Positions 5,983 through 29,267 of a stretch of 46,330 nucleotides of DNA are shown piece by piece. The DNA comes from an uncultured Desulfosporosinus sp. Lineage in GTDB: Bacteria > Bacillota > Desulfitobacteriia > Desulfitobacteriales > Desulfitobacteriaceae. A program made the translations under genes and the position numbers. The stretch lies in contig CAKMJS010000121.1 in assembly GCA_927405585.1 (NCBI GenBank), forward strand, positions 1 to 46,330, read 5' to 3'. How positions within the stretch are numbered: the stretch's first letter is position 1; every line of letters begins with the position of its first letter. The notes beneath the pieces were generated by a model. The model was not told the origin of the DNA, made no database searches, and saw only the letters and a program-made list of their open reading frames with translations.

Positions 5983-6201
5983 TTACTCCATAACAACGCA
6001 GGAAAGATCCCCTTCACCCACTTGAAGAGTGACGTCCTCTAAGGCTGGATCATCCCAGGCCACCAGAGAACCATCTTCCGCTAGGTCATAAATAACGACT
6101 TTGTCAGTTTGAGTAGCGAATTCTACGCAACAATCCCAACAATAGAACTGCCCTACTCCCACTTTACCAATGGCACGCCCACTACAAACTGGACAATTCA
6201 T
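5983..6201 (-). CDS. Small zinc-ribbon protein of unknown function
   Basis: A 72-residue protein. The N-terminus has two cysteine pairs, CPVC at residue 3 and CWDCC near 21, a spacing that suggests a zinc ribbon. The C-terminal half is acidic (DLAEDGSLVAWDDPALEDV) and ends with VGEGDLSCVVME. I recognise no named family. Its ATG overlaps the stop of the PRC-barrel gene (ATGA), so the two are almost certainly translated from one message. A terminator follows. A role in nucleic-acid or protein binding is possible but not shown. Confidence 0.8.
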   Translation of the reverse strand: MNCPVCSGRAIGKVGVGQFYCWDCCVEFATQTDKVVIYDLAEDGSLVAWDDPALEDVTLQVGEGDLSCVVME

Positions 6202-6692
6202 GATAGTAAACCCCCTTCATTTGCTTGGTCCAAGGGGGATACTTGATTATCAACGATCAAAATATCCTTGCCATCAATCATGACACGGGGTCTGAGTATT
6301 GTTCCCCTGCCATGAAGTAGGTCTGCGAAGAGCCCGTCAGAAACTTCAAATCCTACCATTTTCTCTACGGAATCATCAAGGAACACATCTTCAATCGTAC
6401 CTCTTGCTTCTCCACCTTGGGTATAGACTTCATTTCCCACTTTGTCCGTCCATCGAGTCCCCTTAAGTACTTCAACAGCTTTGTCGCAAACGGTTAAGGC
6501 ATCCTTGCCAACGGATATGATGGCTTTTCGAGGAATTCCTTTTTCCGAACGGAAGAAGTGCCCGCCTTCTAAGAGAATACCAACAACCTCGTCTTTATCA
6601 TTATCTAAGACCAGATCCTGTACCCACCCAATTGAGTTCCCACTTTTTAGATCTAAGACGGGTAGGCCGACAATCTCTCGAGTTCGTCGCAT
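6198..6692 (-). CDS. PRC-barrel domain protein, two repeats
   Basis: With the chosen start the protein has 164 residues. Two PRC-barrel units are visible: residues ~4-75 (REIVGLPVLDLKSGNSIG, then VQDLVLDNDKDEVVGILLEG) and ~85-150 (GNEVYTQGGEARGTIEDVFL, then VGFEVSDGL). PRC-barrel proteins bind RNA or act in photosynthetic or ribosome-linked settings (RimM, YlmC/YmxH); which applies here is unknown. An upstream in-frame ATG at 6767 would add 25 residues encoded by the hairpin-rich repeat. I reject it because GAGGTGG sits 7 bases before the ATG at 6692. It overlaps the following zinc-ribbon gene by 4 bases. Confidence 0.85.
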   Translation of the reverse strand: MRRTREIVGLPVLDLKSGNSIGWVQDLVLDNDKDEVVGILLEGGHFFRSEKGIPRKAIISVGKDALTVCDKAVEVLKGTRWTDKVGNEVYTQGGEARGTIEDVFLDDSVEKMVGFEVSDGLFADLLHGRGTILRPRVMIDGKDILIVDNQVSPLDQANEGGLLS

Positions 6693-6757
6693 GCGTCTTC
6701 CACCTCGCAACAAAGTTCTATCTATACTCTGCCCTGCAGTATTACTATTTATGCATG

Positions 6758-6951
6758 CGCTGTCCACGACGATAAGCGGACGAGCTTATCGCCACACTGC
6801 AACTCATTACGCATACTCCTGCAGTGTGGATCGGACGAGTGTCCCTGTAGCCCGAAGACACTGTCTTCGCACGGATTACCCTTCTTGCAGGATGGCGAGA
6901 AGGGACCGCTGTCCACGACTCGTACAGGACGTACGAGATTAGCGTGACGCT
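6758..6951. repeat. Array of at least six short hairpins between mnmA and the PRC-barrel gene
   Basis: Perfect stems follow one another: CGATAAGC/GCTTATCG (6770-6777, 6784-6791, loop GGACGA); CCACACTGCA/TGCAGTGTGG (6792-6801, 6820-6829); CGAAGAC/GTCTTCG (6853-6859, 6863-6869), which competes with AGTGTC/GACACT (6838-6843, 6857-6862); CCCTTCT/AGAAGGG (6879-6885, 6898-6904); CTCGTAC/GTACGAG (6919-6925, 6931-6937); AGCGT/ACGCT (6941-6951). The 13-base word CGCTGTCCACGAC occurs at both 6758 and 6907, and GGACGA is both a loop and a linker. No T-runs follow the stems. It could be a structured RNA or a composite repeat; I do not recognise a known RNA family. Confidence 0.75.
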
Positions 6952-8099
6952 GTTTCGATATTCGAACCACGAACCACGAACTTCGAACCTCGATTTCGAC
7001 CTCGCGGATCGGAACTAATGATCCCCCCGCCCACGACAAGGCTTCCTTGATAAAAAACGACGGCTTGTCCTGGAGTCACTGCACGTTGAGGTTCGTCGAA
7101 TCGGACTACGACTTCATGGTCTTCAGCTCTATCCCCGGGATAAATGGTCGCCGGAACACCCTTGGAATTATAACGAATCTTAGCTTCGACTTTGAGCGGT
7201 TCCTCTAAAGACGGAATGGATATCCAGTTTAGATCGCTTGCCCAAAGCGTATCCGTGAACACATCTGGGTTTTCCCCTAACACTACCTCGTTGCTTTTAG
7301 GATTCAGACCCACGACAAACATCGGTTTACCGAAGGTTACTCCTAAGCCCTTCCGCTGCCCAACTGTGTAATGAATAATCCCTTGGTGCTTGCCAAGATT
7401 ATTGCCCAAAAGATCCACAAAATTTCCTGGTTTAATCAGCTCACTCGAGCGCTCCCGGACAAACGAAGCATAATCATCGTTTGGAACGAAACAAATCTCC
7501 TGGCTGTCGGGTTTGTTTCCTACCCCGAGCCCCCGTTCATTCGCCATTTTTCGAATTTGCTCTTTTGGGTATTCTGCTAAGGGAAAAAGAGTCTGGGCTA
7601 ACTGTTCCTGGGTTAACATGTAGAGTGCATAGGTCTGATCTTTTTTTGTATCAGCACTCTTACTTAATAAGAACCGTTCACTATCTGGATCTCTCAAGAC
7701 TTGCGCATAATGACCAGTGGCTATGTACTCAGCTCCCAGCCCACGGGCTTTACGGAGCATCTCACCAAATTTAACATGCTGATTACATGCCAAACAAGGG
7801 TTTGGCGTTTCTCCAGCCAAATAAGACTGTGTGAAATAATCCACCACAGTCTTCTCAAAGTACGAACGAAAGTTCATAACGTAATGAGGAATTCCCAAGA
7901 GAAAGGCAACCCGTCTAGCGTCATCTATCGCAGAATTGGAGCAGCAGCCTCCTTCGACTTCAGGCCCCGCCGATTCCCAAATCTGCAAGGTAATCCCGAT
8001 CACGTCATAGCCTTCTTCTTGGAGCAAAGCGGCGGCCATGGAACTATCCACACCACCGCTCATCCCTACAACTACTTTTGGTTTCGTTGTTAGACCCAT
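6939..8099 (-). CDS. mnmA: tRNA-specific 2-thiouridylase MnmA (TrmU)
   Basis: A 386-residue enzyme that thiolates U34 of tRNA-Lys, -Glu and -Gln at C2, using sulfur relayed from a cysteine desulfurase. The PP-loop GMSGGVDSS lies at residues 12-20. One catalytic cysteine is in NPCLACNQHVKFG near residue 103 and the second in SQEICFVPNDDY near 202. The C-terminal barrel continues to about residue 365 (VVFYQGSLVVGGGII). The last ~21 residues (RGRNRGSKFVVRGSNIETASR) are encoded by dispersed repeat DNA and are probably not part of the ancestral protein. It follows nifS and iscU, the likely sulfur donors, in one transcription unit. Confidence 0.97.
   Translation of the reverse strand: MGLTTKPKVVVGMSGGVDSSMAAALLQEEGYDVIGITLQIWESAGPEVEGGCCSNSAIDDARRVAFLLGIPHYVMNFRSYFEKTVVDYFTQSYLAGETPNPCLACNQHVKFGEMLRKARGLGAEYIATGHYAQVLRDPDSERFLLSKSADTKKDQTYALYMLTQEQLAQTLFPLAEYPKEQIRKMANERGLGVGNKPDSQEICFVPNDDYASFVRERSSELIKPGNFVDLLGNNLGKHQGIIHYTVGQRKGLGVTFGKPMFVVGLNPKSNEVVLGENPDVFTDTLWASDLNWISIPSLEEPLKVEAKIRYNSKGVPATIYPGDRAEDHEVVVRFDEPQRAVTPGQAVVFYQGSLVVGGGIISSDPRGRNRGSKFVVRGSNIETASR
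6952..7004. repeat. Degenerate tandem repeat forming the mnmA 3' end
   Basis: The words TTCGAACCACGAACCACGA, ACTTCGAACC and TCGATTTCGACCTCG are overlapping variants of a short CGAAC/TCGAA unit. They occupy the codons for the last ~18 residues of MnmA, and related words form the hairpin at 1515-1549. Confidence 0.65.
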
Positions 8100-18049: not shown

Positions 18050-18212
18050 AGATCATACCTCCTAGATCAATATTTTTTGCTCGACTCAAACAGGGACATT
18101 CTGGATTAGAACACCGCCTTGGATGGCAAGGTGTCGTGATGGCTAGATGCAGTGATGGATATTTGCCGTGGTGGCTAGAAAAGACCTTCCTGGCATTTTT
18201 GCTTATTGGTCA

Positions 18213-29074: not shown

Positions 29075-29267
29075 ATCGTGAGACTCCCACTTCTACAAGT
29101 GGGAGTGGGACTCCGTACTCCGCTTCACGATAGTCTCCGGTACGATAGTCTCCGGTGGAGAGTATCGCCGAAGCCGTGATCCCTAGAGGAATACCTACCG
29201 GCGTAGGATAGAGCCGCCCTCCCCATAGAAATACTTAGCGGCGAAGGTGGGGGTAGACTCCCCCACC
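29075..29267. repeat. Compound palindromic repeat element
   Basis: From left to right: a 10-bp hairpin ACTCCCACTT/AAGTGGGAGT (29083-29092, 29097-29106) with CTCCGTACTC; two perfect copies of ACGATAGTCTCCGGT (29127-29141, 29142-29156); the AGAGTATCGCCGAAGCCG unit shared with the aspS end (29159-29186); two near copies of AATACYTASCGGCGWAGG (29190-29207, 29230-29247); and GGTGGGGG/CCCCCACC (29246-29253, 29260-29267). Single parts recur at 14973, 34860, 40009 and 43535. It has no reading frame of interest and fills the gap between the two micropeptide units. Confidence 0.75.

Follow-up and report, generated by a model that had tools for sequence, protein, structure and literature searches.

We conclude that the hairpin array located between mnmA and a gene for a PRC-domain protein in an uncultured Desulfosporosinus sp. 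(contig CAKMJS010000121.1, of which a stretch of 46,330 nucleotides, hereinafter the window, was analyzed) is composed of small Desulfosporosinus hairpin elements, mobile but non-autonomous, that are nested within one another, a reading to which we assign a probability of about 0.85. The modules that make up the array recur separately across the genome and the genus, and elements of the type that we denote A are also present in pseudogene copies of 5S rRNA. Most likely, the array itself serves no dedicated function and persists between the two genes because it is tolerated there.

Organization of the array and its neighboring genes

The array contains two identical copies (100%) of a 13-base word, CGCTGTCCACGAC, at 6758-6770 and 6907-6919, and the word is repeated because it constitutes the left end of two tandem copies of B, a palindromic module of ~54 nt (Table 1). 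Only the start of the second B copy is evident, its 3' part being not recognizable. In addition to the two stems of module A, the array comprises a perfect inverted repeat of 8 bp at 6853-6860/6862-6869, which would realistically fold into 7 bp with a 3-nt loop, a near-perfect one (90%) at 6879-6888/6895-6904 and, delineated by eye, a 7-bp stem with the loop AGGAC at 6919-6925/6931-6937 and an outer helix GTCCC/GGGAC. The hexamer GGACGA serves as a loop at 6778-6783 and as a linker at 6833-6838. Thus, the stems, the 13-base word at both ends and the double role of GGACGA that had been reported in a preliminary description of this DNA are all found in the sequence. Taken as RNA, the region 6750-6960 of the plus strand folds with a free energy of -83.2 kcal/mol, compared to -64.0 +/- 4.2 kcal/mol for 200 dinucleotide shuffles (z = -4.58; none of the 200 as good), and the minus strand yields z = -3.44, with 1 of 200 shuffles as good. 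Inspection of the sequence by eye revealed no T-run after the array stems, bearing out the earlier statement that these are not simple terminators; with no T-run behind them, they can be dismissed as an intrinsic terminator.

Table 1. Modules of the array and flanking features, with window coordinates
Feature	Position	Strand	Basis
Module B copy 1, left end and 5' arm of hairpin 1 (first copy of the 13-base word)	6758-6769	+	Word search; by-eye alignment with the A-less B of G001 and G017 at the same locus and with the B consensus
Module A, a double hairpin (62 nt) within the first loop of B copy 1	6770-6831	+	Covariance model R1, E = 7.5e-20 (R1 was built from 29 sequences, this copy among them); consensus match
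Module A stems, perfect inverted repeats of 8 bp (loop GGACGA) and 10 bp	6770-6777/6784-6791 and 6792-6801/6820-6829	+	
Module B copy 1, 3' arm of hairpin 1 (GGAC, complementary to GTCC of the left end) and 5' half of hairpin 2 (GTGTCCCTGTAGCC)	6832-6852	+	6836-6852 match B positions 18-34; pairing assigned by eye
Module C, 36-nt hairpin in the second loop of B copy 1 (GCC / ... / AGGATGGC)	6853-6888	+	C2 100% at 6852-6889; filled/empty pair L228/L136
Module B copy 1, 3' half of hairpin 2 (AGGATGGCGAGAAGGGACC)	6889-6907	+	6890-6907 match B positions 37-54
Module B copy 2, left end (second copy of the 13-base word)	6907-6918	+	Word search; tandem B in the corresponding interval of G001 and G017
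Module D, hairpin CTCGTAC-AGGAC-GTACGAG followed by ATTAG, occupying the loop position of B copy 2	6919-6942	+	By eye, with D copies elsewhere
Module E, repeat of the TTCGAACC type, which forms a dispersed family of its own	6955-6995	+	Sequence; genome matches; consensus match
mnmA, neighbor, last codons in modules E and D	6939-8099	-	ORF; congener alignments
PRC-domain gene (name from the preliminary description), neighbor, probable start near 6692	6198-6692	-	ORF; congener alignments

The assignment of module D was made by eye, and a search of the array with the typed D consensus gave no match at 6919-6942. The array was previously described as overlapping both neighboring genes, which holds for mnmA, the stop codon of which (6939-6941) lies inside module D, and probably does not for the PRC gene. 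The PRC open reading frame opens with a GTG at 6767, three codons being within the array, but its matches in congeners begin at residue 4 or later in 16 of 17 cases, and at residues 11-31 in 8 of these; therefore, the real start is probably outside the array, perhaps at an ATG close to 6692. The strand that carries the GGA loops is antisense to both genes. Part of the C terminus of this MnmA is encoded by module E, and the last residues of the protein correspond to the repeat modules E and D (6939-7000). Alignments of mnmA with its counterparts in 17 congeners terminate at residues from 363 to 385, in some cases with internal stops.

Dispersal of the modules

The segment 6700-7000 of the window matches at least 42 places, itself included, in its own 4.48-Mb genome (40 of the 71 candidates scored). 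The other matches cover only part of the segment, and 17 of the 42 listed represent the E repeat. Sequence search with up to 20 candidates scored per genome detected pieces of the array in all 24 Desulfosporosinus genomes searched, in two of these weakly (E = 2.7e-4 and 8.9e-4), and in none of the 16 genomes from other families of the order. With the covariance model and up to 65 candidates scored per genome, module A was found in 25 of 29 genomes of the genus and in 7 of 16 other genomes of the same family, compared to none of the 37 genomes outside the family. Because limited numbers of candidates were scored, the copy numbers of the modules are lower bounds. The whole array produced no blastn match to phages and plasmids, and one A pattern had no exact match in viral contigs. 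Comparison with the Rfam covariance models gave no match in the window at the gathering cut-off, no family for 6700-7000 at E <= 5 and no match to the modules in loci L009-L011, L016 and L017.

Several other repeats came to light in these searches. A second nested array is located at 29120-29260 of the window, where an A2-type element resides in the loop of another (CACGATAGTCTCCGGT / ACGATAGTCTCCGGTGGAGAG...), and this nesting accounts for a 15-bp tandem repeat at 29127. The region 18090-18175 contains a degenerate D-type module (consensus match at 18104-18131) followed by more short repeated words. In the near-complete genome G008 (L292-L331), module C is often contained in a larger element (~120 nt) in which an outer AGAAGA/TCTTCT helix encloses C and which is mostly antisense to both neighboring genes. 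Contig C141 of G000 (L016, 1-720) passes, as judged by eye, inside an A element into GC-rich, foreign-looking DNA, perhaps an assembly chimera at the repeat. Finally, strain-variable stretches of TTCGAAC-type words (L185 4615-4746, L212 1873-1979 and L224 2722-2826) look by eye as if they sit in spacers of tRNA genes.

For 18 genomes of the genus, the mnmA-PRC interval was delimited by the same codons, and the array was not conserved as one unit among these orthologous intervals. The interval is short (116-165 nt) in ten genomes, three of which keep an E-like word, and long (248-398 nt) in seven, including the genome analyzed here, with differing mixtures of modules; one further interval, of 188 nt, contains another palindrome. 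In G001 and G017, the position of the array is taken by tandem B copies that lack A. The additional sequence of each of the eight longer intervals is preceded by the word TTTATKCAT, and six of the ten short intervals contain this word as well. Judging from these alignments, the interval may have received a single old insertion, followed by nested changes and losses. The dispersed matches in the genome, the variability of the orthologous interval and the junctions described below all support the suggestion, made in the preliminary description, that the array is a mobile composite repeat. Another palindromic family, with the words GAGACTCCCACTT and AAGTGGGAGTCTC, is represented in the mnmA-PRC interval of G011 (L068) and at 29080-29110 of the window.

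Insertion sites in filled and empty copies

To delineate individual insertions, we compared all fetched loci with one another, apart from L084-L125 (outgroup and Y1 transposase loci), and picked by eye eight pairs of filled and empty copies from 60 of 132 insertion clusters and 34 of the other 72, the latter taken from clusters other than those of the mnmA locus and of 5S words. Many of the clusters viewed were misalignments of tandem or paralogous copies, and the eight pairs are homologous copies rather than proven orthologous loci. In all eight, the insert lies directly 5' of a GGA of the host, in an apical loop. The clearest junction is that of L233/L058, both 5S-type arrays, in which 63 nt of A2, an A-like element, are placed directly before GGATGAG in the loop of A, with no base lost or duplicated. 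The same A2-in-A step is seen, with about one extra base, in L222/L149, L043/L017 and L181/L042, and these four pairs may trace to few events. The hosts other than A are unrelated stems: A is inserted in AGCGCC-ATGGAC-GGCGCT (L133/L194), a 149-nt B with C and A inside in CGGAACAC-AAGGAT-GTGTTCCG (L029/L203), an 86-nt B with C inside in GCGAC-AAGGAT-GTCGC (L053/L203, which shares its comparison locus with the preceding pair), and C in hairpin 2 of B (L228/L136, two tandem units). Several junctions have gained or lost 1-4 bases. At the right junctions, GGA(Y) is common to insert and target, and there is no constant target duplication. The boundaries of the inserts recur for A, A2, B and C among the matches listed. 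A, A2 and C are oriented according to the GGA strand of the host; B is reversed relative to it in both B pairs (L029 and L053), and therefore the choice of strand is not a general rule.

Loop words, covariation and outer helices

The association of the GGA word with hairpin loops was assessed by counting hexamers with a closing C and G across 268 loci that had been chosen for carrying modules, L084-L125 and 21 loci from other organisms with chance pattern matches being left out. A stem of at least 5 bp surrounds the loop at 29 of 217 AWGGAY sites, with 14 different arms, and at 108 of 192 GGAYGA sites, compared to 472 of the 80,335 sites with neither GGA nor TCC in the loop. The stems of the modules are maintained by compensatory changes. 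In 29 A sequences, 98.2% of the cells are paired, the covariation score is 0.183 (0.068 for shuffled and at most 0.050 for slid alignments), and both sides have changed in five of the eight pairs of helix 1; for 12 B sequences, the score is 0.189 (0.071 shuffled, at most 0.101 slid). Conservation of pairing in relatives, which had been named beforehand as a check on the array, is thus observed for the stems of both modules.

An outer helix of at least 4 bp encloses A in 28 of 46 copies of the CGATAAGC type, for which the mean outer helix is 3.85 compared to 3.20 after shuffling (maximum of 300 shuffles, 3.52). With other stems (40 A copies), the mean is 2.70, hardly above the shuffled value of 2.50. 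Both figures refer to loci other than L084-L125.

Connection with 5S rRNA

In the genome analyzed here, A copies with other stems are located, as seen by eye, near contig ends in broken copies of 5S rRNA genes. Intact 5S matches adjoin such A-bearing broken copies in L009, L011 and L017; A was recognized by eye inside 5S copies in L009, L017 and L334, and L335 contains two weak 5S matches (35.5 and 30.7 bits). The closed genome G015 shows an intact 5S followed by broken 5S copies with A, and the arrangement of intact and broken copies with A in G044, a genome of the same family, is like that in G015. One of three insertion sites in 5S copies, with the junction GAGAT/GGGAAC, resembles the before-GGA junctions of the modules; the other two, GGCGAT/GACC (L043/L017) and GGAGGTC/TTAAC (L017/L042), do not fit this pattern. 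The Rfam models produced no 5S match inside the window, which rules out the array itself as an expansion segment of 5S rRNA.

Mechanism of insertion and alternative explanations

Hairpin loops in folded single-stranded DNA are the insertion target that we tentatively favor, because the loop position of the inserts and the outer pairing agree on it. Each insert would bring its own GGAY loops and thereby offer new targets, so that repeated insertion into these would yield arrays of the Russian-doll type; less surely, the step itself may be insertion into folded single-stranded DNA by some enzyme or template switching from one hairpin to another with the same loop word. A rather doubtful, more general formulation is that 'loop-homing' hairpin elements of Desulfosporosinus and its relatives recognize GGAY in apical loops of folded single strands, insert just before it and create new targets. 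Arrays would then grow from the tips of hairpins, and 5S pseudogenes with insertions, perhaps even functional rRNA expansion segments, would be by-products.

The orientation of the modules in G008 bears on the strand involved. In this genome, A lies on the plus strand at 22 of 23 sites in the first half and on the minus strand at 9 of 12 in the second (p = 3e-5), and C runs the opposite way, with 38 of 42 sites on the minus strand followed by 45 of 50 on the plus strand (p = 8e-16), both modules switching strand near 2.5 Mb. The count for A includes 35 of 42 matches, the seven with the stem CGAAAAGC/GCTTTTCG (rRNA type) being set aside, and that for C 92 of 94, after removal of one palindromic site listed on both strands; the strand statistics leave aside G003 and G015. 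For module D, no such statistics could be compiled because six genomes yielded one match, with 3 mismatches. The switch would fit insertion into one strand at the replication fork if the origin is near the contig end, a position assumed from rRNA and gene direction rather than from an identified dnaA. In G006, the relation of C to the replication strand is not significant (p = 0.20). In tandem gene contexts of G008, A is sense in 20 of 24 cases and C antisense in 21 of 23, the latter among 44 of the 94 matches, which were chosen to include most exceptions to the trend and rest on crude ORF calls; therefore, gene direction explains the bias in G008 about as well.

The main rival concerns the mechanism: copies could arise by template switching between hairpins sharing the loop word, with GGA as the microhomology, together with gene conversion, the perfect stems resulting from quasi-palindrome correction. 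This is a variant of the mechanistic step, not of the composite reading. The GGA(Y) shared at the right junctions and the lack of both a constant target duplication and a transposase linked to the modules (none was found in the loci examined) speak for template switching, but the inserts have recurrent boundaries, as in defined mobile units, and on balance we consider it a possible but doubtful origin of the copies. Mobilization of the modules as REP elements by a RAYT (Y1 transposase) of the genus is unlikely. Long Y1 ORFs (~260-320 aa, RAYT-like in our judgement) are indeed present in G000 and several congeners, and on the reverse strand, the 8-bp hairpin of A has GTGG at its foot, as do some REPs in the description of PMC6006769. 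However, this GTGG is paired in hairpin 2 of A, no module match at E <= 0.01 was found in 30 Y1 loci (20 from the genus; some Y1 matches are not represented by a locus), the one Y1 ORF inspected (in L121) is flanked by a different inverted word, and the closed genome G003 lacks a Y1 match yet carries at least 81 copies of C with up to 3 mismatches. The Y1 transposase-like gene of L121 (1390-2270; G000:C68) lies between inverted copies of the word GGGGACGGTTCT...AGAACCGTCCCC, part of which also occurs in L013, and this word is perhaps a true REP family of its own genome.

Functional readings of the array fare less well than its interpretation as a nested mobile composite. Located between mnmA and the PRC gene, the array might attenuate or terminate transcription or serve in 3' processing, and the strong folding on both strands, the location at the mnmA stop codon and the agreement of module orientation with gene direction in G008 would be consistent with such a role; given stems that lack a following T-run, an interval that is short in 10 of 18 orthologs and no Rfam match, we regard this as very unlikely. 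The structured regulatory RNA envisaged in the preliminary description is not supported, because the array matches no Rfam family, is not conserved as a whole, shows no sense bias in mixed loci and has its GGA strand antisense to both neighbors. A specific version of this idea would be an RNA that binds CsrA (RsmA), or sequesters it as a sponge, through C-A(N)GGA(N)-G loops on unrelated stems. Such a loop resembles the CsrA/RsmE site consensus; the AWGGAY word is carried by 14 different arms, csrA is present in 21 of 24 genomes of the genus, and A is mostly sense in G008 (20:4). Against this, csrA is also present in 14 of the 16 genomes from other families, in which the search detected no piece of the array, the A loops (C-GGAYGA-G) do not fit the consensus, and the GGA strand in the window is antisense to both neighbors. 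The array does contain GGA apical loops, and the orientation of the modules is mixed, with sense:antisense ratios in mixed loci of 6:13 for A, 3:6 for B, 7:5 for C, 12:10 for C2 and 1:9 for D (tandem gene contexts by crude ORF calls, ORF-covered cases and L084-L125 left out). We consider binding of CsrA very unlikely.

Comparison with known systems

Parts of this picture are already in print, namely REPs inserted into palindromes and REPs to which no transposase is linked (PMC3733652), hairpin elements of mitochondria (PMC2800124) and single-strand transposition (PMC6006769). The modules resemble REP, BIME and REPIN sequences in being short palindromic intergenic repeats that form clusters, and some REP families described in PMC3733652 are inserted within palindromes (GTAG-15 of A. 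variabilis, GTAG-23 of T. roseum and CGTC-1 of H. neapolitanus). As characterized in the same source, REPs differ from A, a 62-nt double hairpin that lacks an unpaired GTAG or CGTC foot, that has other dispersed modules as hosts, several levels deep and with a shared GGAY loop word, and that also occurs in 5S copies. The modules were not classified with either of the REP types tried. RAYT-associated REPs and REPINs were rejected because the repeats do not flank Y1 genes, without a single module match in the 30 Y1 loci, and an unpaired GTAG/GTGG foot is lacking, the reverse-strand GTGG at the foot of hairpin 1 being paired. The CGTC-tagged REPs have a terminal unpaired CGTC, a stem of 8-9 bp, a loop of 4-5 nt and a CCA tail, have no linked transposase and are listed in PMC3733652 for five phyla, a list from which Bacillota is absent; A has an 8-bp stem followed by CCA, but its loop is 6 nt long and there is no CGTC tag. 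A MITE was likewise rejected, given the absence of a duplication in L233/L058, the variable junctions and the ends of A, which by eye are not inverted repeats.

The double-hairpin elements of fungal and sponge mitochondria, as described in PMC2800124, are similar in comprising hairpins and double hairpins in intergenic regions and rRNA genes, in their complementary stem substitutions and in lacking flanking duplications (said of Allomyces). Unlike the modules, they are organellar, and the term 'nested' is absent from that description; the likeness drawn here is one of description. IS200/IS605 transposons recognize hairpins in single-stranded DNA and prefer the lagging-strand template, according to the account in PMC6006769, whereas here no transposase gene was seen adjoining the modules and the target is the GGA loop. 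With respect to strand preference, the modules show the strong bias in G008, no significant one for C in G006 and confounding with gene direction.

In Desulfosporosinus orientis and D. youngiae, remnant 5S copies that bear insertions have been described from the distal ends of rRNA operons (Stepanov & Fox 2021, PMC7812874), and the A-type elements found here are likewise inserts of 5S copies. The description given there does not link these inserts to intergenic modules or to nesting in repeat loops, and the two sets are compared here by description. In the open-access literature searched, we found no description of nested hairpin modules in Desulfosporosinus, of several-level nesting at a shared GGA loop word or of a likeness between intergenic modules and 5S inserts. 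The arrays also call for caution in that they sit at contig ends of draft assemblies and can supply the ends of genes, here the stop codon of mnmA. What the present analysis adds to the known systems is the loop-targeted nesting and the connection with the 5S inserts, that is, a testable target rule, insertion directly before GGA in an apical loop, for bacterial repeats with unexplained mobilization, and a likely source of the inserts in the 5S rRNA of this family.
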